Source: Acidithiobacillus ferrooxidans ATCC 23270
GTDB taxonomy: Bacteria > Pseudomonadota > Gammaproteobacteria > Acidithiobacillales > Acidithiobacillaceae
Assembly: GCF_000021485.1 (NCBI RefSeq)
Contig: NC_011761.1
Location: forward strand, 1,890,001 to 1,954,000
Direction of reading: 5' to 3'
DNA: 64,000 nucleotides
A program made the position numbers and the translations under genes. The stretch's first letter is position 1, and each line of letters starts with the position of its first letter. The notes under the pieces were generated by a model. That model had not been told where the DNA came from. It made no database searches and saw nothing but the letters and a program-made list of their open reading frames with translations. Below are positions 9,031 through 23,597 of the stretch, in pieces.

Positions 9031-9576
9031 ATGGAACAGGTCTGCAAAAAAATTCGGCAACTTCGCGAGGATAGGGGATGGTCCGTGCGCGGACTGGCGG
9101 CGCGTGCCGAAATTTCACCCAGTGCCCTCTCGCAGATCGAGGCGGGGCAGAACTCCCCCTCCATCGCCACTCTGGAAAAAATCTGCGCGGCGCTGCAGAT
9201 TCCCATCGCCGCGATTTTCGATGACGGTGAAACGGCGGGTTTGCCATGGATCATGCGCAGCGGTGACCGACGCAAGTTTTACAGTGCCGGTTCCCACGCT
9301 TCACTGGAACCGCTGGCTCGCGGCCTGCCGCAAAAGAAAATGCAACCGCTGCTGATGGTACTTGAACCGGGCGGAGAGTGTGGTGAACACCCCTATACCA
9401 GTGCCGAAGGAGAAGAATTCACCATCGTCATCCGCGGGACGGCCGCTTTTGAGCAATCCGGGGTGACCACGGAACTGGGGGAGGGCGACGCCATTTACTA
9501 TGATCCGCGTCTGCCCCACAACTGGCACAACCGCGGCCACTCCGCAACGACCCTGTTGGTGGTGGTAGCCCAGTGA
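9031..9576 (+). CDS. XRE-family regulator with C-terminal cupin domain
   Basis: The 181-aa cytoplasmic regulator has an N-terminal Cro/C1 helix-turn-helix (about residues 5-62, SALSQIEAGQNSPS being the recognition region) and a C-terminal small cupin barrel (about 105-180) with the His/Glu metal-type motif GGECGEHPYTSAEGEEF. Such proteins sense a small ligand through the cupin. The stop overlaps the GTG start of hyfB (GTGA), so it is translationally coupled to the hydrogenase-like complex. It is therefore the obvious candidate to control that operon, possibly with autoregulation. The ligand cannot be read from sequence. Confidence 0.9.
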   Translation: MEQVCKKIRQLREDRGWSVRGLAARAEISPSALSQIEAGQNSPSIATLEKICAALQIPIAAIFDDGETAGLPWIMRSGDRRKFYSAGSHASLEPLARGLPQKKMQPLLMVLEPGGECGEHPYTSAEGEEFTIVIRGTAAFEQSGVTTELGEGDAIYYDPRLPHNWHNRGHSATTLLVVVAQ

Positions 9577-11555
9577 TCTCCTGCCTGCCTCTGGATCTCG
9601 CCACGGGGGCATTGCTGCTCTGGCTGGGTCTGGGGCTACTGGGCTTTCTGCTGGGCGGCTGGCCAACCACCGCCTGCCGGTTGATCTTCCCCCTCAGCAG
9701 CGCGGTTGCCCTGCTGCTGGCTGTTACCGGGTTCAGCGCGCTGACGGCCCCTCCAGATCAACTGCAGTTGCGCGGACCCCTGCCCGCCTTGCCCTGGTCT
9801 TTCCAGATCGATCCCCTCTCGGGATTTTTCCTGATTCTGCTGGGGTTGCTGGCCTTCGCGGTAACCCTGTTTGCCACCGGCTATTTCCGCGCCCTCTCGG
9901 GACCGGCACTGCGTCGGCTCATGCTTCAATACCACACCTTTCTGCTGGGGATGGGACTGGTTCTGCTGGCGGCCAATGCCTTCACTTTCCTGGTCGCCTG
10001 GGAAATCATGGCGCTAGCCTCGTATTTCCTGGTGGTGACGGAGCATGAAGAGCCGGGCAGCCGTCATGCCGGCTTCCTCTATCTGCTCATCGCCCATCTT
10101 GGGGCGCTGGCCATTTTGCTGGGCTTCGTCCTCCTCGCCGGAGCGGCCATAGCCCAGGGCGGGCCGTTCAGCGCCATGCTGCATGCCCCCCTCGATCCGT
10201 TCTGGGCATCGGCCGCCTTTCTCCTGACCTTTTTCGGATTCAGTGCCAAGGCGGGCTTGCTTCCCCTCCACATCTGGCTGCCGGATGCCCATCCTGCCGC
10301 TCCCGCCCCGGTCTCCGCGCTGATGAGCGGGGCAATGCTGCAGATGGCCTTCTATGGCATGTTGCGGGTGGACTTTCTCTTTCTCGGCAATCTGGCCTCG
10401 TGGTGGGGTCCCTTTGTACTAGGGGTGGGTCTGGCGACGGCCCTCTTCGGTGTGCTTTTCGCCGCCGCCCAGACGGACATGAAACGTCTGCTGGCCTATT
10501 CCTCCATAGAAAACATGGGGCTGATCATGGTGGCCTTCGGCCTCGCCCTGATCTTTCGCACCCATGGACTCGGTGCCCTGGCGGCCCTGGCTCTGGCCGC
10601 CGCCCTGTATCATGCGCTGAACCACGCCTTCTTCAAGGGCCTGCTTTTTCTCGGCAGCGGCAGCGTACTGCATGGAGCGGGCAGCGTGGCCATGGATCGA
10701 CTGGGCGGCCTGATCCGGCAGATGCCTCAAACCGCATTTTTCATGCTCCTCGGCACCCTCGCCATCGCCGGGCTCCCCCCCCTCAACGGCTTCGTCTCTG
10801 AATGGTTGCTCCTGCAGGCGTTCCTGCTGTCGCCCGCCCTGCCCCAAAGCACCCTCAGCGCGGTATTGCCCCTGGCGGCCTCCGGCGTCGTGCTGGCGGT
10901 AGCGCTGGCGGCCTACGCCATGGTCAAGTTTTACGGCATCGCCTTTCTCGGTCAGGCGCGCGGCGCAGGGCATGCCCATGAGGGCGGACGCTGGGAACGC
11001 TCCGCCATGGCCCTGCTGAGTGTCGCCTGTATTTTCCTCGGGCTCTTTCCTGGTGTCCTGTTGAATCTGCTGCACCCCGTGCTGCAGGAGATGCTCGGCC
11101 AAAGCTTCACCGTCCAGCGGGGGCTGTGGCTGACGCCGGTCTCCGCGCAACGCGCCAGTTACAGTCCGATCATTTTCTTCCTCGGCATGGCCACCGCCCT
11201 GGGGCTGGGTTTTCTCTTGATCTGGAGCTTCTTTGGCCGGCCCCTGCGGCGTGTGCCGGCCTGGGCCTGCGGTTTTCCCGTCCGGACGCCGGCCATGCAG
11301 GATAGTTCACTGGGGTTTGCGCAACCCCTGCTGCGCATCTTCGCGCCGCTGTATCAGGCGGAACGGGAGGTAGACGGCGCCGGCCGCTGGCGAATGCGGA
11401 TCGGAGAACCTTTATACCGTGGCTTCTATCAACCCCTGAGCCTTCTGGCCTTCTGGCTCTCGGCACAGGTGCTGCGCCTGCAGCAGGGCCGCATCACCCT
11501 GTATCTGCTCTACAGCTTCCTGACCCTGCTGATCCTGCTGGCGGTCTGGCGATGA
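9573..11555 (+). CDS. hyfB: HyfB-like antiporter subunit of a hydrogenase-4-related membrane complex
   Basis: The 660-aa polytopic inner-membrane protein is of the NuoL/NuoM/Mrp antiporter superfamily and resembles hydrogenase-4 component B. The proton-antiporter core (about residues 120-420) contains the LPDAHPAAPAPVSALMSG signature and the broken-helix lysines typical of proton channels. The C-terminus carries further helices. It is the first structural gene of a tightly packed run; the GTG start overlaps the regulator stop by 4 nt and its own stop overlaps hyfC by 4 nt. It is predicted to translocate protons for the complex. A DabB-like partner role is an alternative, but the neighbours favour the Hyf assignment. 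Confidence 0.88.
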   Translation: MISCLPLDLATGALLLWLGLGLLGFLLGGWPTTACRLIFPLSSAVALLLAVTGFSALTAPPDQLQLRGPLPALPWSFQIDPLSGFFLILLGLLAFAVTLFATGYFRALSGPALRRLMLQYHTFLLGMGLVLLAANAFTFLVAWEIMALASYFLVVTEHEEPGSRHAGFLYLLIAHLGALAILLGFVLLAGAAIAQGGPFSAMLHAPLDPFWASAAFLLTFFGFSAKAGLLPLHIWLPDAHPAAPAPVSALMSGAMLQMAFYGMLRVDFLFLGNLASWWGPFVLGVGLATALFGVLFAAAQTDMKRLLAYSSIENMGLIMVAFGLALIFRTHGLGALAALALAAALYHALNHAFFKGLLFLGSGSVLHGAGSVAMDRLGGLIRQMPQTAFFMLLGTLAIAGLPPLNGFVSEWLLLQAFLLSPALPQSTLSAVLPLAASGVVLAVALAAYAMVKFYGIAFLGQARGAGHAHEGGRWERSAMALLSVACIFLGLFPGVLLNLLHPVLQEMLGQSFTVQRGLWLTPVSAQRASYSPIIFFLGMATALGLGFLLIWSFFGRPLRRVPAWACGFPVRTPAMQDSSLGFAQPLLRIFAPLYQAEREVDGAGRWRMRIGEPLYRGFYQPLSLLAFWLSAQVLRLQQGRITLYLLYSFLTLLILLAVWR

Positions 11556-12493
11556 CCGGCATACTGCTGGAACTGGCACAGGTACTGCTGGTGGCATTTC
11601 TGGCGCCGCTCTTTGCGGGGATGCTGCGGGCCCTGCGGGCAATCCTGCAAAACCGGCGACCGGCAGGCTGCTGGCAGAACTACCGTGATCTGTATCGCCT
11701 GTTCCATAAAGAATCTCTGCAGGCGGAGGGCACATCCTGGCTCTTCCGCTTTGCCCCTTACGGGATTTTCGGGGCGTTCTGTCTGGCGGCGGCGATCATC
11801 CCCATCCTTGCCACCGGCCTGCCTCTGGCGCCGGCCGCCGACGTCATCGCCCTGGTGGGTTTGTTCGCCCTGGCCCGGGTTTTTCAGGTGCTGGCGGCCA
11901 TGGACACGGGGACACCCTTCGCCACCCTGGGCGCCCATCGGGAAATGCTGATCGCCGGGCTCGCGGAGCCCGCCCTGCTGGCCACACTCTTTACGGCGTC
12001 CCTGCTCTCCCGGTCCACTTCGCTGAGCGTGATCGTGGCCCACCTGGAGCAACTGCGCTTCGCCCTGCACCCCAGCATGGCTTTCGCGGCCACCGCCTTT
12101 TTCATCGTGCTGCTGGCGGAAAACGCGCGGATTCCCGTGGACAATCCCGCCACCCACCTGGAACTGACCATGATTCACGAAGCCATGCTCCTGGAATACT
12201 CGGGACGGCATCTCGCACTCATGGAGTGGGGGGCGCAGATCAAGCTGACGCTCTATGTGGCCATCGGTATTGCGCTGTTCCTGCCCTGGGGTATCGTGCC
12301 CACCGCAGAAGTCGCGATGCTGCCCATGACCCTGCCAGTCCTGCTGCTGAAATTCGCGAGCGCCGCCGTGATCCTGGCACTGATCGAAACCCTGCTCGCC
12401 AAGCTCCGACTTTTCCGCGCCCCGGAGTTCATGGCCACCGCCTTTCTGCTCGGGGTCATCGGGCTTCTGACCTTTTTCATGCTGGGGGCATGA
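11552..12493 (+). CDS. hyfC: HyfC/NuoH-like membrane subunit
   Basis: The 313-aa protein has about eight hydrophobic helices and matches the complex I subunit 1 (NuoH)/HycD/HyfC family. Diagnostic parts are the RLFHKE segment near residue 55, the AMDTGTPFATLGAHRE loop and the ENARIPVDNPATHLELTMIHEAM loop. The equivalent of these loops contacts the NuoD/NuoB-like subunits at the quinone or active-site side and starts the proton path. The start overlaps the hyfB stop (ATGA). It is followed 1 nt later by hyfE. Confidence 0.9.
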   Translation: MTGILLELAQVLLVAFLAPLFAGMLRALRAILQNRRPAGCWQNYRDLYRLFHKESLQAEGTSWLFRFAPYGIFGAFCLAAAIIPILATGLPLAPAADVIALVGLFALARVFQVLAAMDTGTPFATLGAHREMLIAGLAEPALLATLFTASLLSRSTSLSVIVAHLEQLRFALHPSMAFAATAFFIVLLAENARIPVDNPATHLELTMIHEAMLLEYSGRHLALMEWGAQIKLTLYVAIGIALFLPWGIVPTAEVAMLPMTLPVLLLKFASAAVILALIETLLAKLRLFRAPEFMATAFLLGVIGLLTFFMLGA

Positions 12494-12494
12494 C

Positions 12495-13172
12495 ATGACC
12501 ATCACCGCACAGGGACTCGCCTGGGGCATCCCCCTGCTGAGGCTCCTCGCCGCCCTCCTCCTGCTGCTCGCTTTCGCCATGCTGGCGCAACGGCGTCTCC
12601 TCACCCTGATCCATCTCCTGGCTTGGCAGGGAGTAGTCCTCGCGACCGGCACGGCGCTGGTGGCGCTGCTGACCGGGCAGACGGAGTTGTGGTTTTCCGC
12701 AGCTCTGACCCTGGGGCTGAAGGCCATTCTGATCCCAACGGTGCTGCACCGTCTGTTACGACGCCTGCAGGTGCGTGGCGACGTGGAGGCCGTGCTCAAC
12801 ATCCCCCTGACACTGCTCGCCGGCATCGCGCTGGTCATCTTTGCTTTCTCCCTTGCCGCCCCCATCACCGCCCTGACCGGCCCCGTGACCCGCGGCATGG
12901 TCGGCATTGCCCTCGCCGCCGTGCTGCTCGCTTTCCTGATGATGATCACGCGGCGCAAGGCCATTTCTCAGGTGGTGGGTTTTCTGGCCGTCGATAACGG
13001 TCTCTTCTTCGCCGCGACCAGCGCCACCCTGGGCATGCCGATGATCGTGGAACTGGGCGTAGCCCTGGATGCCCTGATCGGCTTCGTCATTCTCGGCGTG
13101 TTCTTTTTTCAGATACGGGAGACCTTCGACAGCATGGATCTCCAGAATCTGGAACATATCCGGGAGGAATGA
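12495..13172 (+). CDS. hyfE: HyfE-like membrane subunit (NuoK-related)
   Basis: The 225-aa hydrophobic protein has about seven helices and resembles hydrogenase-4 component E, which carries a NuoK-like module. The MIVELGVALDALIGFVILG segment near the C-terminus is typical of the family. It sits between hyfC and hyfF and overlaps hyfF by 4 nt. No hyfD homologue is present beside it, unlike the E. coli hyf operon. Confidence 0.86.
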   Translation: MTITAQGLAWGIPLLRLLAALLLLLAFAMLAQRRLLTLIHLLAWQGVVLATGTALVALLTGQTELWFSAALTLGLKAILIPTVLHRLLRRLQVRGDVEAVLNIPLTLLAGIALVIFAFSLAAPITALTGPVTRGMVGIALAAVLLAFLMMITRRKAISQVVGFLAVDNGLFFAATSATLGMPMIVELGVALDALIGFVILGVFFFQIRETFDSMDLQNLEHIREE

Positions 13173-14626
13173 TGCTGATTCTGCTGGTTCTGGCTTGTGC
13201 GGCGATGGGCATCCCCCTGCTTGCCCTCTGGGGCGACGGACGCCGGGGGGCAGCGCTGTTCATCGGCTTCAATACGCTGACGCTGCTGGCCATCCTGGCC
13301 CTGGCCATACAGGTGGTGAAAGACGGCGCATTTACCGCGGGCGGCGGACAATTCATGGTGGATGATCTCAGTATCGTGCTGGTACTGGTGGATGGCGTGG
13401 TGGGGCTCAGTACGGCGTGGTTCTCCCGCAACTATATGCTGCACGAAACGGTGCACTGGTCGCTCTCCCGCCAGCGTGTCCGCCTGTATCACGCCATGTT
13501 CCAGACCTTTCTCGCCACCATGTTGCTGGCCCTGCTGACCAACAATATGGGCATCCTCTGGGTGGCCATGGAAGGCGCCACCCTGTCCACGGTACTGCTG
13601 GTGAGCCTCTTCCGCACCGCTGAGGGCCTGGAGGCGGCCTGGAAGTATTTCATTCTCTGCGGTGTCGGACTGGCGATGGCGCTATTCGGTACCATCCTGC
13701 TGTATTTCGCCGCCCAGAAAATCATGGGGCATGGTGCGGACGCATTGTTGTGGACGCATCTGGCGGCCGTGCGCCATGAGTTGGAACCGCAGGTCATGGC
13801 CATCGCCTTCATCTTCATGCTGGTGGGCTACGGAACCAAAATCGGCTTGACCCCACTCAACAACTGGCTGCCGGATGCTCACGCCAGCGGCCCCAGTTCG
13901 GTTTCGGCGGTGCTCTCCGGCCTGTTGCTCAATGTCGCCCTCTACGCCATCCTGCGCGCCAAGGTACTGGTGGATGGCGCTCTGGGTCGGGACTTCGCCA
14001 GCCACCTGCTGATGGGTTTCGGTTTGCTCTCCCTGCTGGTGGCAGGCTTTTCCATGCTACGGCAACGGGATGTAAAGCGGCTTTTCGCCTATTCCTCCAT
14101 CGAGCATATGGGGCTGGCCACCTTCGCCTTCGGGATCGGCGGACCACTAGCGAGCTTTGCCGGCTTGCTGCACATGGTCAGCCACAGCCTGACCAAGTCC
14201 TCGGTGTTTTTCTCGATCGGGCAAGCGGTACAGGACATCGGCAGCCGCGAAATCCAGCGCATCCGCGGTATGCTGGAATTCAGCCCCTTGCTGGGCTGGG
14301 CGTTCATGCTGGCGGTACTGTCCATCCTGGGAATGCCCCCCAGCGGGCTCTTCTTGAGCGAATTCCTGATCATCACCAGTACCCTGCAGGCCCAACCCTG
14401 GCTCACGCCCCTGCTCCTGCTGGGGTTGGGTGTGGCGTTCGCCGGGATTTTCCCGCGCATGCAGGGCATGGTCTTCGGGGCGCATCAGGAAGGCGTTGCG
14501 CGCCAGTCCGTCGTCGGCATCATTCCGGTCTTCGTCCAATTGACCCTCGTCGCCATGCTCGGGGTGTTCATCCCCTTGACGCTGGTCCAGTGGATGCAGC
14601 ACGCCGCCCAGATTCTCCACGGATAG
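13169..14626 (+). CDS. hyfF: HyfF-like antiporter subunit
   Basis: This is a second antiporter-type subunit (485 aa, about 14 helices) of the NuoN/NuoM-like hydrogenase-4 component F family. It shows the LPDAHASGPSSVSAVLSG motif, a Lys within a broken helix, and the LFAYSSIEHMGL helix found in proton-antiporter proteins. Two adjacent ATGs exist (13169 and 13172); the second has the better spacing to GGGAGG. Together with HyfB, the complex would have two proton channels. hyfG starts 10 nt downstream. Confidence 0.88.
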   Translation: MMLILLVLACAAMGIPLLALWGDGRRGAALFIGFNTLTLLAILALAIQVVKDGAFTAGGGQFMVDDLSIVLVLVDGVVGLSTAWFSRNYMLHETVHWSLSRQRVRLYHAMFQTFLATMLLALLTNNMGILWVAMEGATLSTVLLVSLFRTAEGLEAAWKYFILCGVGLAMALFGTILLYFAAQKIMGHGADALLWTHLAAVRHELEPQVMAIAFIFMLVGYGTKIGLTPLNNWLPDAHASGPSSVSAVLSGLLLNVALYAILRAKVLVDGALGRDFASHLLMGFGLLSLLVAGFSMLRQRDVKRLFAYSSIEHMGLATFAFGIGGPLASFAGLLHMVSHSLTKSSVFFSIGQAVQDIGSREIQRIRGMLEFSPLLGWAFMLAVLSILGMPPSGLFLSEFLIITSTLQAQPWLTPLLLLGLGVAFAGIFPRMQGMVFGAHQEGVARQSVVGIIPVFVQLTLVAMLGVFIPLTLVQWMQHAAQILHG

Positions 14627-14636
14627 GGACGCCATC

Positions 14637-16184
14637 ATGCCCAACCCCGCACTGCGCGTACTGGCCGATTTCCGGCAATGGGGCACGACCTTGCCGGTGT
14701 GGTCCGGTCGCCTCTGCAAGGAGTATTGGCTCCTTGCCGCCGAAAACATCCATGCGCAGGGGGGTCGTCTGCTGGCCCTCTGGGGCGAGGACCGCCGCAC
14801 CGAAGAACCCGGTTATCTCGTCCATGCGGCCTTTTTGTCGGAGACGGGCATCGTGCTTACGGAGATGATCGTAGACCCGGCTGCGGCGTCCTGCCCGAGT
14901 CTGGCCGCCATTTTTCCGGGCGCGCTGCGCATGGAACGCGCCCTATACGACCTGCTGGGCATTCGCGCGGGGAACGGCGACACCCGTCCCTGGCTGCGGC
15001 ATGCCGCATGGCCTGCGGATCAGTTTCCCCTACGCACGGATTTTTGCGCTGACAACCTCGCTACTGCCGGAGACGGAGACTACGCCTTCGTGTCTGCAGC
15101 CAGCCCGGATGCCCATGAGATTCCGGTGGGCCCCATACATGCCGGCATCATCGAGCCGGGGCACTTCCGCTTCCAGGTCCTGGGCGAAGAGATTCTGCAC
15201 CTGGAGGAACGTTTCGGCTATACACACAAAGGGGTGGAACGCCTGCTTCAGGGCCTGGATGTGGACGCAGGCGCACGTCTGGCCGGACGGATCAGCGGCG
15301 ACAGCACAGTGGCGTATGCGTGGAGTTATGCCCAGGCGGTGGAGCAGATCGCCGCGATGCAGGTCCCGGAACGCGCCCAATGGCTGCGCGCCCTCTGCCT
15401 GGAACGGGAGCGCCTCGCCAATCACCTCGGTGACATCGGCGCCCTCGGCAATGACGCCGGACTGGCCTTCGCCCTGACCCAGTTTCAGGCGCTCAAGGAG
15501 GATCTGCTGCGGGAGAATCAGTGCTATATCGGGCATCGCTACCTTATGGACCGGGTCTTGCCCGGTGGGGTGGGCTTTGACCTTACGGCGGTGGCCGTCG
15601 CGGCCCTCCGCAGTGCGGGGCAAGCGCTTGGAACCGCCGTCGCGCGCCTGCAGGAAATTCTTGCCGAACATGGCGGTCTGCGCGACCGTGTGGTGCGGCT
15701 GGGCGTGATTTCCCCGGAACGGGCAGCGCATCTGGGACTCATGGGGGTCGCCGGCCGCGCCAGCGGTCAACCCTGGGACCAGCGCATACAATTTCCCCAA
15801 CCTCCTTACGATCAGATCCAGGTACGCATGACCACAGCCACAGAGGGCGACGTCGCGGCGCGCATGGCGGTGCGCTTTCTCGAGATTTTCGAGTCGCTGC
15901 GCCTGCAGGAGGAAATCCTCCGCAAACTGCCCGGCGGGAACGTGCGCCAACCGCCGGATCTCCGGGATGCTACGGGAGAGGGTGTTGGTTGGGTGGAGGG
16001 CTGGCGGGGTGAGGTATTTTTCTGGCTGCGCCTGGAGCAGGGACATATTCGCCGCTGTCATCCCCAGGACCCGTCGTGGACCCTCTGGCCGGCACTGGAA
16101 GAGGCGGTCCTGCGCGATATCGTCGCGGATTTTCCGCTCATCAACAAATCTTTCAACCTGAGTTACAGCGGTCATGATCTGTGA
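14637..16184 (+). CDS. hyfG: HyfG/HycE-like large subunit (NuoC-NuoD fusion) lacking the [NiFe] cysteines
   Basis: The 515-aa protein fuses an N-terminal NuoC-like domain (about residues 1-135, ending in MERALYDLLGI) to a NuoD/hydrogenase-large-subunit domain. Overall it matches HycE/HyfG in segments such as GYTHKGVERLL and ERERLANHLGDIGALGNDAG. The two metal-ligand motifs are gone. Where HycE has Arg-x-Cys-Gly-x-Cys, this protein has Arg218-Ile-Ser220-Gly-Asp-Ser223 plus a short deletion. The C-terminal Cys-x-x-Cys is replaced by a stretch ending NLSYSGHDL. It therefore should not bind Ni-Fe and is not a hydrogenase. This is the pattern of energy-converting hydrogenase-related (Ehr) complexes. 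Confidence 0.9.
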   Translation: MPNPALRVLADFRQWGTTLPVWSGRLCKEYWLLAAENIHAQGGRLLALWGEDRRTEEPGYLVHAAFLSETGIVLTEMIVDPAAASCPSLAAIFPGALRMERALYDLLGIRAGNGDTRPWLRHAAWPADQFPLRTDFCADNLATAGDGDYAFVSAASPDAHEIPVGPIHAGIIEPGHFRFQVLGEEILHLEERFGYTHKGVERLLQGLDVDAGARLAGRISGDSTVAYAWSYAQAVEQIAAMQVPERAQWLRALCLERERLANHLGDIGALGNDAGLAFALTQFQALKEDLLRENQCYIGHRYLMDRVLPGGVGFDLTAVAVAALRSAGQALGTAVARLQEILAEHGGLRDRVVRLGVISPERAAHLGLMGVAGRASGQPWDQRIQFPQPPYDQIQVRMTTATEGDVAARMAVRFLEIFESLRLQEEILRKLPGGNVRQPPDLRDATGEGVGWVEGWRGEVFFWLRLEQGHIRRCHPQDPSWTLWPALEEAVLRDIVADFPLINKSFNLSYSGHDL

Positions 16185-16220
16185 GCACGGTGCCGGGACG
16201 GTTCCCGGAAGGAGGTGGTG

Positions 16221-16718
16221 ATGTACCGGATGTTGCGTGAGTTGCTGCGGCTGGGAAGGGTGGGAGAGACACCACCGCGGACGGAGCGGGACCCGTCCTC
16301 CGCCAGCCCCCTCGTTTTTCGCCATAGCCTCGGCATCCGCCATGTGGATGCGGGCTCCTGTAATGGTTGCGAGCTGGAACTGAACGCCCTGGGCGGCCCC
16401 CATTATGGCCTGGAGCAGGCAGGCTTCCACTTTACCGCCTCGCCGCGTCATGCGGATGTGCTGACCGTGACGGGACCAGTGACCCGGCACATGGTCGCGG
16501 CTTTGCAGGACTGCCACAATGCCACGCCCGAACCGCGGCGGGTCATCGCCGTTGGCGACTGCGCCTGTGGTGGCGGTGCGTTCCGCGGCAGTTATGCGGT
16601 CATGGGCAGCGCCGCGGAGGTCTTGCCGGTGGATCTGCAGATACCGGGCTGTCCGCCGGATCCAGACGCGCTGCTGCGGGGACTGTTGCAGGTGTCCGGG
16701 GAACGAATAAACGGTTGA
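16221..16718 (+). CDS. hyfI: HyfI/NuoB-like small subunit with one [4Fe-4S] cluster
   Basis: The 165-aa protein is of the complex I 20-kDa (NuoB)/HycG/HyfI family. The four cluster ligands survive: Cys47 and Cys50 in SCNGCE, Cys114 (or Cys116) in GDCACGGG, and Cys144 in PGCPPDPDALLRGLL. The subunit can therefore still hold the N2-type [4Fe-4S] cluster even though its large-subunit partner has no [NiFe] site. The ATG at 16221 was chosen because AAGGAGG lies 5 nt upstream; two in-frame GTGs precede it. No HyfH-type ferredoxin gene adjoins. It is the last gene of the hyf-like run, 256 nt before cbbM. Confidence 0.9.
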   Translation: MYRMLRELLRLGRVGETPPRTERDPSSASPLVFRHSLGIRHVDAGSCNGCELELNALGGPHYGLEQAGFHFTASPRHADVLTVTGPVTRHMVAALQDCHNATPEPRRVIAVGDCACGGGAFRGSYAVMGSAAEVLPVDLQIPGCPPDPDALLRGLLQVSGERING

Positions 16719-16974: not shown

Positions 16975-18354
16975 ATGGATCAATCTAATCGCTATGCCGA
17001 TCTTTCCCTAAAAGAGGAAGACCTTATCTCTGGCGGCAAACACATTCTGGTGGCCTACAAAATGAAACCCAAGGCTGGCCACGGTTATCTGGAGGCCGCC
17101 GCCCACTTTGCCGCGGAATCGTCCACCGGCACCAACGTCGAAGTGTCGACTACCGACGACTTCACCAAGGGCGTGGACGCGCTGGTCTATCATATCGACG
17201 AAGCCACCGAGGATATGCGCATCGCCTTTCCGCTGGAGCTGTTCGACCGCAACGTCACCGATGGCCGCATGATGATCGTCTCCTTCCTGACGCTGGTCAT
17301 CGGCAACAACCAGGGCATGGGCGACATCGAGCATGGCCAGATGATCGACTTTTTCATGCCCCCGCGCGCCATTCAGTTGTTCGACGGCCCGGCCAAGGAT
17401 ATCTCCGATCTGTGGCGCATCCTCGGTCGTCCGATCAAGGACGGCGGCTATATTGCCGGTACCATCATCAAACCCAAGCTGGGTCTGCGCCCCGAACCTT
17501 TTGCGGCAGCGGCCTATCAGTTCTGGCTCGGGGGCGACTTCATCAAGAATGACGAGCCCCAGGGCAACCAGGTCTTCGCCCCGGTGAAAAAGACCATCCC
17601 GCTGGTGTATGACGCCATGAAACGCGCCATGGACGAAACCGGTGAGGCCAAACTGTTCTCCATGAACATCACCGCCGACGACCATTACGAAATGTGCGCC
17701 CGCGCCGACTTCGCCCTGGAAACCTTTGGTCCCGACGCCGATAAGTTGGCCTTTCTGGTAGATGGCTTCGTCGGTGGGCCGGGTATGATCACCACCGCCC
17801 GCCGCCAGTATGCCGGCCAGTACCTGCACTATCACCGCGCCGGCCACGGCATGATCACCTCGCCCAGTGCCAAGCGCGGCTACACCGCCTTTGTGCTGGC
17901 CAAGATGTCCCGCCTGCAGGGTGCGTCCGGTATTCATGTGGGTACCATGGGCTACGGCAAGATGGAAGGCGGTGCTGACGACCGCAACATCGCCTACATG
18001 ATCGAGCGCGACAGTTGTGACGGCCCCGTCTATCATCAGGAATGGTATGGCATGAAACCCACCACGCCCATCATCTCCGGCGGCATGAATGCCCTGCGTC
18101 TGCCCGGCTTCTTCGAGAACCTGGGGCACGGCAACGTGATCAACACCGCCGGCGGCGGCTCCTATGGCCACATCGACAGCCCGGCGGCCGGCGCGGTCTC
18201 CCTGCGTCAGGCTTACGAGTGCTGGAAGGCGGGTGCTGATCCGATCGAGTACGCCAGAGAGCACAAGGAATTCGCACGGGCCTTCGAATCCTTCCCGGGC
18301 GATGCCGACAAGCTTTACCCGGGCTGGCGCGAAAAGCTGGGCGTACACCGGTAA
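16975..18354 (+). CDS. cbbM: Form II ribulose-1,5-bisphosphate carboxylase/oxygenase
   Basis: This is a 459-aa form II RuBisCO that fixes CO2 onto ribulose-1,5-bisphosphate in the Calvin cycle, acting as a homodimer or multimer without small subunits. Catalytic residues fall at exactly the Rhodospirillum rubrum numbers: Lys166 in KPKLGLRP, carbamylated Lys191 with Asp193 and Glu194 in [10 protein letters not shown], and loop-6 Lys329 in GYGKMEG. The ATG at 16975 has a GAGGA ribosome-binding site; the frame stays open upstream to 16858 without homology. It has its own promoter region and terminator. Form II enzymes have low CO2 specificity and suit high CO2 and low O2. Confidence 0.98.
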
Positions 18355-18503: not shown

Positions 18504-19322
18504 ATGACTGCAACAGATTCCTCCATCCTGAACCAGTATCTGGTAGGCAAGGAGCCATTTTACCAGCCTCAGCACGACGAAGTGGCCCTGTTTGAAGCCG
18601 CCTACCGCAAGCGGCTGCCGGTGATGGTCAAGGGACCGACCGGTTGCGGCAAGTCCCGCTTTGTCGAATTCATGGCCTGGCGCCTCGGCAAGCCGCTGGT
18701 CACCGTAGCCTGTAACGAGGACATGACCGCCGCCGATCTGGTCGGCCGCTGGCTGCTCGACAAGGACGGTACCCGTTGGCAGGATGGCCCACTCACGGTG
18801 GCGGCGCGCTACGGCGCGATCTGCTATCTGGACGAAATTGTCGAGGCCCGTCAGGACACCACCGTGGTGATCCACCCGCTCACCGACCATCGCCGCACCC
18901 TGCCGCTGGACAAGAAGGGCGAACTGATCCGGGCGCATCCCGACTTTCAACTGGTGATTTCCTATAACCCCGGCTATCAGTCGCTGATGAAGGATCTCAA
19001 GCAATCCACCAAGCAGCGCTTTACCGGCTTCGAGTTCGACTATCCCAACGCCGAACTGGAAGCCGGGATTCTGGTGCAGGAAACCGGTGTGGCGCCGTCC
19101 ATAGCCGCCCAGTTGGTCACCGTGGCCGCTACCGCCCGGCGTCTCAAGGGTCACGGTCTGGATGAGGGCATCTCCACCCGGCTACTGGTCTATGCCGCCA
19201 TGCTGATGGACGATGGGGTGGCACCGCGCGCGGCCTGCCGCATGGCTTTAGTGCAGCCGATCACCGATGATGCCGACATCCGCGCGACGCTGGAACACGC
19301 CATCGACATGACCTTCGCCTGA
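18504..19322 (+). CDS. cbbQ: CbbQ RuBisCO activase subunit (MoxR-type AAA+ ATPase)
   Basis: The 272-aa AAA+ ATPase forms hexamers and, with CbbO, removes inhibitory sugar phosphates from RuBisCO active sites. The Walker A motif is G44-PTGCGKS-51, Walker B is the AICYLDEI segment near residue 110, and a sensor-1 Asn lies in ISYNPGYQ. The C-terminal CbbQ domain follows. It lies between the cbbM terminator and cbbO, the form II (CbbQ2/CbbO2) gene order. The ATG is preceded by GGAGCACCGC. Confidence 0.96.
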   Translation: MTATDSSILNQYLVGKEPFYQPQHDEVALFEAAYRKRLPVMVKGPTGCGKSRFVEFMAWRLGKPLVTVACNEDMTAADLVGRWLLDKDGTRWQDGPLTVAARYGAICYLDEIVEARQDTTVVIHPLTDHRRTLPLDKKGELIRAHPDFQLVISYNPGYQSLMKDLKQSTKQRFTGFEFDYPNAELEAGILVQETGVAPSIAAQLVTVAATARRLKGHGLDEGISTRLLVYAAMLMDDGVAPRAACRMALVQPITDDADIRATLEHAIDMTFA

Positions 19323-19340: not shown

Positions 19341-21620
19341 ATGACGGATCATCCGCGCGACGCATCTCTGCCATCCCGCCTGGCGGCCTACCGGAAGCAA
19401 CTCGACTGTCGCTTCCCCCGGGTCGGCGAGGTGTTTTCCGACTGTATCGCCAAGGCCAGCGCCCGCCTCGGCCCGGCGGGCGTGAGCGCCTATGTTGACG
19501 CGGCGCGGGCCCTCTGCAAACTCGGGCGGGGTGAAGAACCGGTCCTGATTTTCCTCGAAGAATGGCCGGACGTCGGCGCCGCACTGGGCGACGGCACGCT
19601 GGAAATGGTCATGCAGATGGTACAGTTCATGCAGCGCACCCCCAACGGCAACGCCATCGGCGGATTCCTGCAAAGCCTGGCGCCGGTCAGCCGCGCCCTG
19701 CTGAGCCGCGAGCAGTTGGGGCATTATCTGAACACGCTACGCGACATGATGGAGCGTACCACCGGCTCCATCCACGGCCATCACCAGACCCACCCCAGCC
19801 CCGGTCTGCCGGAGCTCCTGCGCCAAGCACCCACCCTGTTGCAGAGTCTGACCGTGGATGGCCTGCGCAATTGGGTCGACTATGGCGTGCGCAATTATCT
19901 CCACCACCCCGAACGTCAGAAAGATTTCTTCTCGCTACAGTCGGCCGACAGCCGGGCGGTGTTGCAGCGCGAACGACACGGCACCCTGCTGGCGGACGTC
20001 GAACGCAAACTCGACCTGTACCTGCGCGGGCTCTGGCAAGACAGCGAAGTATTGGTCCCCTACTCCACAGCCTTTGCCACGCTGCGCACGCCGCAGCCCT
20101 ACTACGACGCGCTTGGCATGCGGCTGCCGGATGTGCTCGATGATCTGCCGGGTATCGGCGCGCTGGACCACTACCGCGCGATCCTGGCGCATATGGTCGG
20201 CCACCGGCGCTGGTCAACACCGCAGATAGCCGATAACTGGAGCCCGTTCCAGCGCCTGGCGGTGGAGTTTTTCGAGGACGCCCGCATCGACACCCTGCTC
20301 ATCCGGACCTATCCCGGCCTGCGCACGCTATTCCTCGCGCTGCACCCCAAGCCCGGTGAAGATGCCTGCGATCCGGAGACGACCTCCTGCCTGCGCCATC
20401 GCCTGGCGATGCTGTCGCGGGCGCTACTCGACCCGGAACATGGTTACCGCAATCCCGTGCTCCATGACTTTGTCGACCGTTTTCACGGGGAACTCGCGGG
20501 TGGCAATGCCGATACGGCGACCATGGCCAGGCTGGCGCTGGATTATGTCACCACCACACGCCGCCAGAGCGACCAGTTCGCCAAAGTGCATTTCGCCGAT
20601 ACCGAGATCAGCTACCGCGACGACAACCGCGGTTTATGGCGCTTCATCGAATCCGGCGATGAGGAAGAGGCCTTTGACGCAGAACAGCGCAAGGCGCCCG
20701 ATCTGGAAACCCAAGGCCTGCCGCCGCGCCACTATCCCGAATGGGATTATCAGAGTCAGAGTTACCGGCCCGACTGGGTCAGCCTCTATGAAGGGCTGCA
20801 CGCTTCGGCGCCCGCAGCGACCATCGATCAACTGCTCCTCAAGCATGCGGCGCTGGCCAAACATCTCAAACGCCTGCTCGATCTGCTCAAACCGCAGGAC
20901 AAGGTGCGCATCCGCTATCAGGAAGAAGGCAGCGAGCTGGATCTGGACGTCGCCCTGCGTTCCTGGATCGATTTCAAGAGTGGCAGCACCCCCGACCCGC
21001 GCATCAACATGAGCCATCGCACGGCCGGCCGCGATATCGCCGTGACCCTGCTGCTGGACTTGTCCGAATCACTGAACGAATCTGTCAAAACCGGCGGCGG
21101 CGACGGCCAAACCGTATTGCAACTGTCGCAGGAAGCGGTATCGCTGCTCGCCTGGTCCATCGAACAACTCGGCGATCCGCTGGCCATTGCCGGTTTTAAT
21201 TCCAACACCCGCCATGAAGTGCGCTACCAGCACATCAAGGGTTTCTCCGAACCCTGGGGAGACGTCGTCAAAGGCCGCCTGGCGGCACTCCAGGCCGGTT
21301 ACTCGACCCGGATGGGCGCCGCCATGCGCCACGCGGGACACTATCTGGCGACACGCAAGGCCGACAAGAAACTGATGCTGGTACTCACCGACGGCCGGCC
21401 CTCTGATGTCGATGTGCAGGATGATCGTCTCCTGATCGAAGATGCCCGCCAGGCGGTCAATGAACTGGATCGCGACGGCATCTTCACCTACTGTATCAGC
21501 CTCGATCCCCATGCCGACGCCTATGTCGCCGACATCTTCGGCCGTCAGTACACCGTCATCGACCACATTGCCAGACTGCCGGAAAAGCTGCCGGAACTGT
21601 TCATCGCCCTGACCCGGTAG
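19341..21620 (+). CDS. cbbO: CbbO RuBisCO activase adaptor with von Willebrand factor A domain
   Basis: The 759-aa partner of CbbQ links the ATPase to RuBisCO. The long helical N-terminal region is followed by a C-terminal VWA domain (about residues 565-755). Its metal-ion-dependent adhesion site reads Asp573-Leu-Ser575-Glu-Ser577, with further VWA features at TRMGAAMRHA and LTDGRPSDVD. In characterised systems this MIDAS contacts an acidic residue of RuBisCO. The gene begins 18 nt after cbbQ and ends 6 nt from the convergent LysR gene. Confidence 0.95.
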   Translation: MTDHPRDASLPSRLAAYRKQLDCRFPRVGEVFSDCIAKASARLGPAGVSAYVDAARALCKLGRGEEPVLIFLEEWPDVGAALGDGTLEMVMQMVQFMQRTPNGNAIGGFLQSLAPVSRALLSREQLGHYLNTLRDMMERTTGSIHGHHQTHPSPGLPELLRQAPTLLQSLTVDGLRNWVDYGVRNYLHHPERQKDFFSLQSADSRAVLQRERHGTLLADVERKLDLYLRGLWQDSEVLVPYSTAFATLRTPQPYYDALGMRLPDVLDDLPGIGALDHYRAILAHMVGHRRWSTPQIADNWSPFQRLAVEFFEDARIDTLLIRTYPGLRTLFLALHPKPGEDACDPETTSCLRHRLAMLSRALLDPEHGYRNPVLHDFVDRFHGELAGGNADTATMARLALDYVTTTRRQSDQFAKVHFADTEISYRDDNRGLWRFIESGDEEEAFDAEQRKAPDLETQGLPPRHYPEWDYQSQSYRPDWVSLYEGLHASAPAATIDQLLLKHAALAKHLKRLLDLLKPQDKVRIRYQEEGSELDLDVALRSWIDFKSGSTPDPRINMSHRTAGRDIAVTLLLDLSESLNESVKTGGGDGQTVLQLSQEAVSLLAWSIEQLGDPLAIAGFNSNTRHEVRYQHIKGFSEPWGDVVKGRLAALQAGYSTRMGAAMRHAGHYLATRKADKKLMLVLTDGRPSDVDVQDDRLLIEDARQAVNELDRDGIFTYCISLDPHADAYVADIFGRQYTVIDHIARLPEKLPELFIALTR

Positions 21621-21626
21621 GGCCCC

Positions 21627-22538
21627 CTATGCAGGCAGCAACCGTGCCGCATCCTGGTTCAGCAGAAAATCCCGGAAGGCCTGAGCGGCCGCCGAGAGGC
21701 GCTTACCCTGACGATGCACCAGATACCAATGGCGTTCGATAGGCATGCCCTGCACATCCAGCACCGCCAGGTGTCCTGCCAGCAATTCTTCCCGCACCGT
21801 ATGCAGAGACGCGATGCCCAGGCCCATACCGGCGCGCACCGCGTGCTTGATCGCCTCGTGGCTGCTGACTTCGATGCTCGCGTGCAGCGCAACCCCGGCC
21901 TTTTCAAAAAATTGTTCCACCGCGATTCGCGTCCCCGAACCCGGCTCCCGCATAATGAAGGGGTAAGTTGCCACCATGTCCAGAGTAATCGCCTTGATCC
22001 GGGCCAGGGGATGATCCGGTGCAGCAATGATCACCAGCGGATTTTCCAGAAAGGCCGTAGCCTCCAGCGCCAGCCCTGCAGGCGGCCGCCCCATGATGGC
22101 AATATCCACTTCGTTCTCCGCCAGTTGATGCAGCAGGGTCTCCCGGTTGGTGACATCCATGCTGACCGTGACCTGCGGATGTAATTTGCTGAACGCCGCG
22201 AGCAGATAGGGCGCAATATAAGCCCCGGTGGTGGCCACACTGATATGAATATGCCCCCCCGCCAACCCCTTGAGGTCGTTGATCACCTGTACCGCCTCTT
22301 CGAGTTGCTGGGTAATGGCGGCACTGTAGCGCGCCATTTCCCGCCCCGCTTCGGTGAGATAGATCCGGCGCCCCAGTTGTTCAAAGAGCGGCAGTCCGAC
22401 CTGTTCTTCCATCTGCCGGACCTGCATGGATACGGCGGGCTGGCTGAGATAGAGCGCCTGCGCGGCGCGGGTAAAGCTCTGATGTTTCGCCACAGCGGTA
22501 AACACCTGTAGCTGGCGAAAGGTGAGATGCATACTCAT
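21627..22538 (-). CDS. cbbR: LysR-family regulator, CbbR type
   Basis: The 303-aa protein has an N-terminal winged helix-turn-helix (MHLTFRQLQVFTAVAKH onward, about residues 1-65) and a LysR substrate-binding domain (about 95-295). CbbR proteins activate cbb operons in response to metabolites such as RuBP or NADPH. Here it is convergent with cbbO rather than divergent from cbbM. The ATG at 22538 overlaps the yjdM stop as ATGA; a second ATG at 22532 is possible. The CbbR label rests on the RuBisCO neighbourhood and general similarity; the target is inferred. Confidence 0.85.
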   Translation of the reverse strand: MSMHLTFRQLQVFTAVAKHQSFTRAAQALYLSQPAVSMQVRQMEEQVGLPLFEQLGRRIYLTEAGREMARYSAAITQQLEEAVQVINDLKGLAGGHIHISVATTGAYIAPYLLAAFSKLHPQVTVSMDVTNRETLLHQLAENEVDIAIMGRPPAGLALEATAFLENPLVIIAAPDHPLARIKAITLDMVATYPFIMREPGSGTRIAVEQFFEKAGVALHASIEVSSHEAIKHAVRAGMGLGIASLHTVREELLAGHLAVLDVQGMPIERHWYLVHRQGKRLSAAAQAFRDFLLNQDAARLLPA

Positions 22539-22876
22539 GGCACTTTTCGCAGAAACTCGGACTTCAACTGTATCGCACCAATGCCATCCACCTTGCAATC
22601 AATGTTATGATCACCGTCAACAATGCGGACGTTCTTTATTTTTGTTCCAACTTTTATTATTGATGATGACCCTTTTATCTTGAGATCTTTCACCACGACC
22701 ACGGTATCGCCATCATTGATGGCACTGCCATTTGCATCAGAAACACGAAGGGAGTCAATTTTTTCCAGATTATTTTCTTTTGGCCATTCCTGTGCGCATT
22801 CTGGACATATATAAATATTGCCGTCTTCATAGACGTAATTTGAACTGCATTTCGGACAACTCGGAATACTGCCCAT
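22535..22876 (-). CDS. yjdM: YjdM/PhnA-family zinc-ribbon protein
   Basis: The 113-aa cytoplasmic protein has an N-terminal zinc ribbon (CPKC near residue 8 and CPEC near 26) and a C-terminal SH3-like PhnA domain with the DGDTVVVVKDLKIKGSS and VEGDHNIDCKVDGIG-like segments of the family. It was historically named alkylphosphonate uptake protein PhnA, but its role is unknown. The start at 22876 removes a non-homologous extension. Its base composition is more AT-rich than the flanking cbb genes. It is translationally coupled to the LysR gene. Confidence 0.9.
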   Translation of the reverse strand: MGSIPSCPKCSSNYVYEDGNIYICPECAQEWPKENNLEKIDSLRVSDANGSAINDGDTVVVVKDLKIKGSSSIIKVGTKIKNVRIVDGDHNIDCKVDGIGAIQLKSEFLRKVP

Positions 22877-22889
22877 AGATAAGCCTTCC

Positions 22890-23597
22890 TTAGTGGTTAT
22901 TGATAAAAACAGCATCTTGTGGACCAGAATATGAATGTCCCGTATACGCAAAGACTACCCTGTTCCCAAACAATTCCGCCTCGATAGCAATGACATGGTC
23001 GTCAAATCTCTCGCGGATTCCGGTGATATAGGTTGCGCACCTTCTGTCACTATTTAGCATATCGACCACCAATACGCCACCCTTCCGGAGTTTGGCGTAG
23101 CAATGCGCGTAGAACTCCGCGCTGCATAACTGTCTGGCCTGACCATCGTGGTTGAATCCGTCAATGAGCAGCACATCGACAAGTTTGGAGCGGTATCGGA
23201 CATATACCGCGCCCTCAGCACAAATCACTTTGAATTTTGGACCATCCGGAGGGATTCTGAATTTGTCGCGCAGGGCAATAACCCTGGGGTTGATCTCTAT
23301 TGCCATGAAGTGCACATCCGGGATATGGCGCAGGCAATATTTCGCCAGCGAGCCACCGCCCAAGCCGATCATCGCGATCCGCTCGGGTTTTGGCTGGAAG
23401 ATCAGGAACCCCATCATTGTCCGGGTATATCCTAGAACGAGATTATCGGGATCGGCTTTGTGCATGGCGCTTTGTGTGGCCGAAAGGTCGAAGCGCAGCG
23501 TTATCTCGCGATCCCCTTCATGTGCAAAAGGGTTCCCTGTCAGGGTCTGTGCCGGCGCGTCCCTATCTCCGAGTAAATTATCGACAAATTCATCCAT
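22890..23597 (-). CDS. Spermidine synthase-like SAM-binding protein
   Basis: The 235-aa protein has the Rossmann fold of the spermidine synthase/methyltransferase family: a nucleotide-binding Gly loop in MIGLGGGSLAKY, an acidic MAIEINPRVIALRDKF strand end, and a DVLLIDGFNHDG segment equivalent to the catalytic loop region. It lacks the N-terminal tetramerisation domain of full polyamine synthases, so an aminopropyl transfer role is uncertain. It begins the minus-strand group with yjdM (13 nt later) and the LysR gene. Confidence 0.78.
   Translation of the reverse strand: MDEFVDNLLGDRDAPAQTLTGNPFAHEGDREITLRFDLSATQSAMHKADPDNLVLGYTRTMMGFLIFQPKPERIAMIGLGGGSLAKYCLRHIPDVHFMAIEINPRVIALRDKFRIPPDGPKFKVICAEGAVYVRYRSKLVDVLLIDGFNHDGQARQLCSAEFYAHCYAKLRKGGVLVVDMLNSDRRCATYITGIRERFDDHVIAIEAELFGNRVVFAYTGHSYSGPQDAVFINNH

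Follow-up and report, generated by a model that had tools for sequence, protein, structure and literature searches.

The hyf locus of Acidithiobacillus ferrooxidans ATCC 23270 raises a simple question: what is a hydrogenase-4-like complex for, when its large subunit, HyfG, has none of the cysteines that would hold a [NiFe] centre and its genes lead straight into those of form II ribulose-1,5-bisphosphate carboxylase/oxygenase (RuBisCO)? The window analysed here is the whole stretch of 64,000 nucleotides from contig NC_011761.1 (positions 1,890,001 to 1,954,000, forward strand; RefSeq assembly GCF_000021485.1), in which hyfBCEFGI, known as AFE2149-54, is followed by cbbM, AFE2155 (PMC2621215, PMC6458275). 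The cluster has been described as a group 4 hydrogenase, with a proton gradient serving to make reducing power, or formate oxidation, as the proposed function (PMC2621215), and a 2025 paper argues for H2 production by Hyf in Acidithiobacillus ferridurans (PMC12053936). A HydDB classification reported “non-hydrogenase catalytic subunit sequences” in A. ferrooxidans hyfBCEFGI (PMC7735108), and the non-hydrogenase verdict for this cluster is therefore already in print. Judged from its sequence, the complex encoded in the window is almost certainly a non-hydrogenase energy-converting hydrogenase-related (Ehr) complex. The argument starts from HyfG and two of its motifs.

14637-16184, plus strand: HyfG-like large subunit without [NiFe] ligands, 515 aa (open reading frame, families, alignments, fold, tree and dN/dS)
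15288-15305, plus strand: codons 218-223, R-I-S-G-D-S in place of R-x-C-G-x-C (84-row alignment)
16143-16181, plus strand: codons 503-515, NKSFNLSYSGHDL, in place of the C-terminal C-x-x-C (84-row alignment)

The best solved relative of HyfG is subunit 5 of the E. coli formate hydrogenlyase (HycE, 7z0s_E; E 4.6e-47, residues 76-512), and the AlphaFold model (mean predicted local distance difference test score, pLDDT, 86.4; predicted template-modelling score 0.90) likewise has HycE as its best fold match (template-modelling scores 0.91/0.89), with complex I NuoCD as the other of its closest folds. In alignments with E. coli HycE, HyfG and NuoCD and with the organism’s own NuoD, the four [NiFe] cysteine positions are occupied by Ser220, Ser223, Ser509 and Gly512, and no intact cysteine pair is left, just as a first-pass annotation of this DNA had it when it declared all of the ligands gone. 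Its details need amendment. The first motif does read RISGDS, but without the deletion claimed for it: R-V-C-G-I-C aligns gap-free, and the only gap in the vicinity is of 1 residue, some 10 positions upstream. The C-terminal pair, called missing, does lack cysteine, but it has been replaced rather than lost, DPCYSCTDR aligning with NLSYSGHDL. HyfG then stops where HycE has the final Arg of ...CTDR. The C-terminal extension of group 4 [NiFe] hydrogenases is cleaved upon Ni insertion; the tail has a length of 0 aa in all 84 sequences of the window’s type (class I), versus 32 aa in E. coli HyfG and HycE.

Relatives were gathered from 31 Acidithiobacillales genomes and from a GTDB genome scan, the latter represented by the best 80 of 304 confirmed stretches (L071-L150). 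The 84 class I rows are the window, 79 HyfG matches from those stretches whose alignments cover more than 440 query residues, and 4 found in the Acidithiobacillales genomes; shorter matches (e.g., L076 and L078) are omitted, and some rows are near relatives. Alignments A2 and A3 hold 68 and 44 of the available rows. Across the 84 rows, position 220 is Ser in 75, Ala in 8 and Cys in 1, position 223 is Ser in 67 and Thr in 17, and position 509 is Ser in 73, Asn in 9 and Ala in 2, with Cys at positions 220, 223, 509 and 512 in 1, 0, 0 and 0 rows. Arg218, Asp222, Tyr510, Gly512 and Asp514 are present in 84/84, as are D266, N272, D273, H300, D305, D478, N503 and N507; of these invariant residues, D222, D266, H300, D305, D478, N503, N507 and G512 are unlike those of E. 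coli HyfG, HycE and NuoCD and of the organism’s own NuoD, H300 being common to class IIa and G512 to class IIb, two more distant ligand-less types. A ligand loss that runs through 84 rows is therefore neither chance nor the error of a single sequence. The alignments show HyfG to be the catalytic-type subunit, one of six in the complex, in which the former [NiFe] positions have become conserved Ser/Thr and Gly, adjoined by invariant Asp, Asn and Tyr. A former hydrogenase decaying without function would fit the loss of all ligands, and it is rejected as barely conceivable: the ratio of nonsynonymous to synonymous substitution rates (dN/dS) of HyfG is 0.115-0.183 against five relatives (0.12-0.18 when rounded; our own Nei-Gojobori script), the replacement residues are invariant, and the order hyfB-C-E-F-G-I is kept in 62/62 complete loci, meaning those of the 80 in which both hyfB and hyfI were found. 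Two of the complete loci have a partial second copy alongside; at L097 and L121 such a fragment of another, diverged hyf set directly adjoins the first.

In an IQ-TREE phylogeny of 30 rows, class I forms one clade (100/100), and both the Nuo-type proteins (100/100) and HycE/HyfG fall outside it; the branching order among the ligand-less classes is poorly supported, with long branches flagged. Thirty of the 31 more distant rows were sorted, 8 to IIa, 16 to IIb and 6 to Nuo-type, and the truncated row L063_7 was left unsorted. The Acidithiobacillales IIa and IIb copies share Hyf-like subunits and ligand loss with class I, but their motifs (RFAGAS...WGLSIAENDR in IIa, RVSGVGSACH...FGLTIAGCDR in IIb) are both unlike those of class I. 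These types were found in L051-L058 and L060-L067, often in tandem; in L051, small genes of CrcB, DUF190 and HEAT type lie between IIa and IIb, and the start of its IIa HyfI, the one examined, carries only part of a two-[4Fe-4S] motif.

The other subunits of the complex are encoded in the same run.

9573-11555, plus strand: HyfB-like antiporter-type proton-pump subunit, 660 aa, GTG start (NF005086 hydrogenase 4 subunit B, 803 bits, cut-off 667; PF00361)
11552-12493, plus strand: HyfC-like (NuoH-type) membrane subunit, 313 aa (PF00146)
12495-13172, plus strand: HyfE-like membrane subunit, 225 aa (NF008556 hydrogenase 4 membrane subunit, 69.9 bits, below the cut-off of 136; no Pfam match; gene order)
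13169-14626, plus strand: HyfF-like antiporter-type proton-pump subunit, 485 aa (NF005045 hydrogenase 4 subunit F, 803 bits, cut-off 543; PF00361)
16215-16718, plus strand: HyfI/NuoB-like small subunit with one [4Fe-4S] site, 167 aa, GTG start at 16215 (PF01058)

The antiporter-type subunits keep their key residues: E144, K226, K355 and K452 of HyfB are conserved in at least 95% of 65 rows, and E135, K224 and K343 of HyfF in at least 95% of 73. Among K, E, D, H, R and C residues conserved at that level, E. coli Hyf/Hyc has most of those of HyfB and HyfF as well as many of those of HyfC, HyfC having many conserved E, D and R residues in common with E. coli HyfC/HycD; in HyfE only 4 of the 12 residues so conserved are common to E. 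coli. Class I HyfC also conserves H202, H209, R219, H220 and E225 where E. coli HyfC and HycD have E, Q, A/S, G and K, and these substitutions fall among conserved acidic residues that we take to be those coupling pocket and membrane in complex I. In the small subunit, the [4Fe-4S] cysteines are kept, as the first pass reported; they are C49, C52, C116 and C146 when counted from the GTG at 16215, and its own numbering (47/50/114/144) fits a start two codons later.

No ferredoxin-like electron-entry subunit of the HyfA/HyfH, HycB/HycF or NuoI type was found in the window, either by a two-motif scan (3 kb) or by a looser one-motif scan (1.5 kb). Over the 62 complete loci, the two-motif scan revealed no cluster-owned ferredoxin-like subunit, its sole hit being a separate dicluster reading frame about 2.9 kb upstream in L129, and the one-motif scan gave hits within 1.5 kb in 13/62, all overlapping hyf genes in another frame. 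The positive controls, E. coli hyf and hyc, returned two ferredoxin-like subunits each. In each of the 4 IIb loci scanned, the looser scan also picked up two fused [4Fe-4S] motifs within HyfI. The class I complex thus has no subunit through which a distant donor could be wired in, and this limits the mechanisms that come into question.

The first mechanism to be affected is the one under which the cluster is annotated. The run does resemble E. coli hyf, with subunits B, C, E, F, G and I of Hyf shared and HycE as the nearest solved structure, and a group 4 hydrogenase is the reading in print (PMC2621215, PMC12053936). That the complex is a group 4 [NiFe] hydrogenase or a formate hydrogenlyase is nonetheless most improbable, and we reject it at the sequence level: compared with E. 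coli Hyf and Hyc (hydrogenase-4 and hydrogenase-3/formate hydrogenlyase), all four Cys ligands are replaced, and the run has neither the cleavable tail nor the ferredoxin-like HyfA/HyfH/HycB/HycF subunits, HyfD or HyfJ. Thus the two Cys pairs, the C-terminal extension and the ferredoxin-like subunit by which a group 4 [NiFe] hydrogenase is recognised are all absent. No formate dehydrogenase family was matched among the 18 window proteins scanned (4765-25692), though a distant partner is possible. What the run does contain is what characterises an Ehr complex: large and small subunits like those of complex I and group 4 hydrogenases, without [NiFe] ligands, and the antiporter-type membrane subunits HyfB and HyfF. 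The conserved ligand replacements, the missing tail and electron-entry subunit, the kept pump residues and the separate clade all support the first-pass view of an Ehr-like complex that is not a hydrogenase; its further remark, that the reaction is unknown, holds experimentally. It makes no mention of the adjoining form II RuBisCO genes, nor of the missing electron-entry module.

A second possibility is a different oxidoreductase, coupled to the proton-motive force (PMF), in which a soluble low-potential carrier docks on the HyfI cluster and the pocket accepts a substrate other than H2 (e.g., quinone). As a whole class we regard this as a serious possibility that falls short of being probable, and each individual substrate ranks below the inorganic-carbon function taken up later. 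In acidophiles such an enzyme may run in reverse, the proton gradient pushing electrons uphill for CO2 or N2 fixation. HyfI C49, C52, C116 and C146 are invariant (44/44), which speaks for electron transfer; the closest folds are HycE and NuoCD; many carriers bear the names of iron or sulfur oxidisers; and the use of a proton gradient to make reducing power is what PMC2621215 proposed for this very cluster. Complex I (NuoB, NuoCD, NuoH, NuoL/M/N) shares the pump arm, the N2-type cluster site and the Asp at the invariant D273 position, which is Asp in both NuoD references and Phe in HycE/HyfG. Differences from complex I include the quinone-site His and Tyr positions, which we take to be those of Thermus Nqo4 His38 and Tyr87: the NuoD references keep both residues, whereas class I has Ile172 (84/84) and Gly221 (83/84). 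There are no NADH module genes in the run and no NuoI, and no NuoI/HycF-type subunit in the 62 complete loci; one further protein of the genome exceeds the PF00346 cut-off, at the normal NuoD position. Moreover, an oxidoreductase leaves the SulP and cbb neighbours described below unexplained. A sulfane or polysulfide reductase of the MBS/MBX kind would suit an organism that uses sulfur, and the PDB relatives of HyfG include chain 6u8y_L, presumably the large subunit of MBS. This chain scores far behind HycE (5.4e-20 versus 4.6e-47), no NuoI-like subunit accompanies the complex, and the carriers include Gallionella, Ferrigenium and Paraburkholderia; we consider such a reductase very unlikely.

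Ligand positions that have been swapped and yet are strictly conserved, next to cbb genes, therefore suggest some other job for the complex. The neighbours in question are as follows.

9031-9576, plus strand: XRE helix-turn-helix and cupin regulator (PF01381, PF07883); its stop overlaps the hyfB start
16975-18354, plus strand: CbbM, form II RuBisCO (NF010002, 908 bits; PF00016)
18504-19322, plus strand: CbbQ (PF08406, PF07728)
19341-21620, plus strand: CbbO-like protein with a von Willebrand factor type A domain (PF00092; cbbO is AFE_2157 in PMC6458275)
21627-22598, minus strand: LysR regulator, CbbR-like (PF03466, PF00126; cbbRm is AFE_2158 in PMC6458275)

The gene run is thus XRE-cupin regulator, hyfB-C-E-F-G-I, a 256-nt gap, cbbM, cbbQ and cbbO, with the LysR gene on the opposite strand. 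The XRE-cupin regulator also stands 5′ of hyfB at other Acidithiobacillales loci. A promoter and terminator scan of the locus gave no excess over shuffled sequence. A cbbM, cbbQ, cbbO or CbbR-like gene is present in 13 of the 18 Acidithiobacillales loci fetched, L037 having only a CbbR-like gene; of the remaining 5, contig ends truncate L036, L038, L040 and L042 on one or both sides, and L050, with its two flanks present, has no cbb gene. L041, which is cbb-positive, is the other part of the L040 cluster from the same genome. In the 31 Acidithiobacillales genomes, 14 have both the Ehr complex and form II CbbM, 4 Ehr only, 1 CbbM only and 12 neither (Fisher p 1.7e-4, uncorrected for phylogeny), so that Ehr is found in 14/15 genomes with CbbM and 4/16 without; in the 25 better genomes the corresponding counts are 12, 3, 1 and 9 (p 9.8e-4, likewise uncorrected). 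The Ehr-only genomes are G002, G004, G019 and G028, and the CbbM-only genome is G013 (a fragment). G002 has kept the complex and a CbbR-like gene and has no form II CbbM, and in G019 the adjacent RuBisCO is form I. For A. caldus, it has been noted that the core hyf cluster co-occurs with carbon-fixation genes, and a CO2/pH homeostasis role was suggested for hyf beside a beta-carbonic anhydrase, with the complex read as an H2-evolving hydrogenase (PMC3826726).

A general RuBisCO linkage outside the Acidithiobacillales was tested and rejected: RuBisCO lies within the fetched stretch in 8/80 loci (L071, L072, L073, L077, L079, L080, L081 and L142), 7 of them of Acidithiobacillus kind, many stretches being short. 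Several other neighbours, recognised by eye as metG- and dnaE-like, are housekeeping genes. The L071 record, labelled as a Thiomonas sp. metagenome-assembled genome, has a hyfG 87% identical and, downstream, a cbbM 96% identical to those of the window, and is either a misbinned contig or a recent transfer. At the level of whole genomes, a RuBisCO-family gene is present in 41/50 carriers tested (with only a weak score in G036), the 50 having been chosen from the 80 loci, chiefly longer stretches and non-Acidithiobacillus records. Among 349 genomes from the family of the Paraburkholderia genome G060 (L122), taken as Burkholderiaceae, 60 have the complex, 74 RuBisCO and 28 both; RuBisCO is thus found in 28/60 carriers versus 46/289 others (Fisher p 9e-7, uncorrected for phylogeny), in searches that scored few first-look candidates per genome and may have missed some genes.

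Beyond the order, a neighbour also recurs on the other side of the complex. Among 47 other loci whose sequence extends 1.5 kb or more upstream of hyfB, 10 have a SulP-family gene as its immediate upstream neighbour in the same orientation; this count omits 12 loci of Acidithiobacillus kind and those with shorter upstream sequence. The upstream SulP genes fall into three groups with a mutual identity of only 32-54%. SulP genes occur in 33 of 41 carrier genomes (41 of the 50 above) with at most 7 matches each; chance adjacency should therefore be rare, with the caveat that the loci are related to one another. For A. ferrooxidans, bicarbonate transport has been proposed as the role of a SulP gene beside carbonic anhydrase (PMC6458275).

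A mechanism can be proposed. Proton passage through HyfB, HyfF and HyfC would be coupled, via the pocket of HyfG and HyfI, to a reaction that does not involve H2. In Acidithiobacillus, this reaction would help form II RuBisCO to fix CO2, most likely through the build-up or conversion of inorganic carbon (CO2/bicarbonate), paid for by the large proton gradient of a cell that lives at pH 1-3. A PMF-coupled inorganic-carbon reaction in the HyfG pocket is the single function that we favour most, and we favour it tentatively, as a possibility and not as a probable answer. Doubtful in its own right is the more specific proposal of a machine without Ni, distant electron wire or carbonic-anhydrase part, in which the rebuilt pocket itself would interconvert or concentrate inorganic carbon, driven by the PMF, and feed RuBisCO. 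The NDH-1MS CO2-hydrating complex has a CO2-hydration subunit of the CupA/CupB type. Like the hyf run, the vectorial carbonic anhydrase DAB/DAC (DabA-DabB; PMC13144422) occurs in autotrophs and has a PF00361 pump subunit, which may be driven by the PMF; unlike it, the hyf cluster has no DabA, which is found elsewhere in the genome.

Several observations weigh against the inorganic-carbon function. The pocket loops of the AlphaFold model (166-175 and 509-515) have pLDDT below 50 and are unreliable, and the pocket chemistry is therefore not visible there; the invariant HyfI cysteines, as said, point to electrons. Since linked genes are lost together, the co-occurrence of Ehr with CbbM, uncorrected as it is, shows co-inheritance more than function. 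In the Burkholderiaceae sample 32/60 carriers are without RuBisCO, and the complex is therefore not tied to RuBisCO, being enriched with it and not obligatory. No SulP gene is directly upstream of hyfB in 37/47 other loci, and SulP proteins may carry sulfate or other anions. Transcripts of cbbM rise two- to threefold at 2-20% CO2 (PMC6458275), the opposite of what a concentrating system for low CO2 would lead one to expect, and no Hyf subunit was detected in the proteomes of cells grown on H2, where CbbM exceeded the other RuBisCO forms in abundance (PMC7735108). There is no carbonic-anhydrase or DabA part within the hyf cluster; the single PF10070 (DabA) match of the genome lies at C1:1430912, about 470 kb off, and its presence in the same genome suggests that the inorganic-carbon function is already covered. 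A Can2-like beta-carbonic anhydrase was found in 1 of 118 loci searched (L144). Just 3′ of hyfI, on the opposite strand, L116, L142 and L144 have a 351-aa protein with a CMDGR motif; a by-eye call of this neighbour as a carbonic anhydrase was withdrawn, the L144 copy having no Pfam match.

The carriers free of RuBisCO, among them Paraburkholderia and Burkholderia records, are easier to accommodate if the complex is a device for PMF, pH or ion homeostasis, in which a ligand binding in the pocket gates proton movement and the catalytic site has been reduced to a regulatory or structural role. Antiporter-type subunits with their key residues kept, beside a large subunit without known catalytic ligands, would agree with this. 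The invariance of D222, N503, N507 and G512 (84/84) around the former ligand positions suggests substrate chemistry, and we hold such a device to be rather unlikely. Two further genes of the window recur near Ehr clusters. Relatives of a spermidine-synthase-like gene (PF01564; 22893-23597, minus strand) are within the fetched stretch in 10/80 loci (L106, L111, L122, L133, L136, L138, L139, L141, L148 and L149), with up to 3 copies around one Ehr cluster in Paraburkholderia/Burkholderia records, and a YjdM/PhnA-type gene (22538-22951, minus strand) is again near the complex in 4 Paraburkholderia/Burkholderia loci (L122, L136, L148 and L149).

Ehr complexes have been described in Sulfobacillus (PMC4378227), in Margulisbacteria and relatives (PMC6349859), in comammox Nitrospira (PMC10284858) and in ammonia-oxidising archaea (PMC10432482), and the available text of these papers calls their function unknown or untested. 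They are likewise kin of group 4 hydrogenases and complex I, with no [NiFe] ligands and with Mrp-type pump subunits. Compared with them by description, the clade of the window stands out by its conserved motifs, RxSGDS/T ... NLSYSGxDL, by the lack of an electron-entry subunit and, at some of its loci, by RuBisCO or SulP genes nearby, whereas for the Margulisbacteria Ehr a formate dehydrogenase partner was suggested (PMC6349859). In the literature searched, so far as its text was available, no proposal of an inorganic-carbon role for ligand-less complexes was found. What appears to be new here, within that literature and allowing for earlier print, is the residue-level case over 84 sequences, the missing electron entry, the test of co-occurrence with form II RuBisCO and the SulP adjacency.

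The ligand loss also corrects the hydrogenase reading on which the case for H2 production in Acidithiobacillus ferridurans still builds (PMC12053936). Ehr complexes occur in varied lithotrophs, and the class I subfamily offers testable leads on their function: the RuBisCO operon of a model acidophile adjoins the complex, the replacement residues are known and invariant, and there is no electron-entry subunit. Should the rebuilt pocket indeed supply inorganic carbon to RuBisCO, the complex would join NDH-1MS and DAB as a third type of energised system for CO2 supply.

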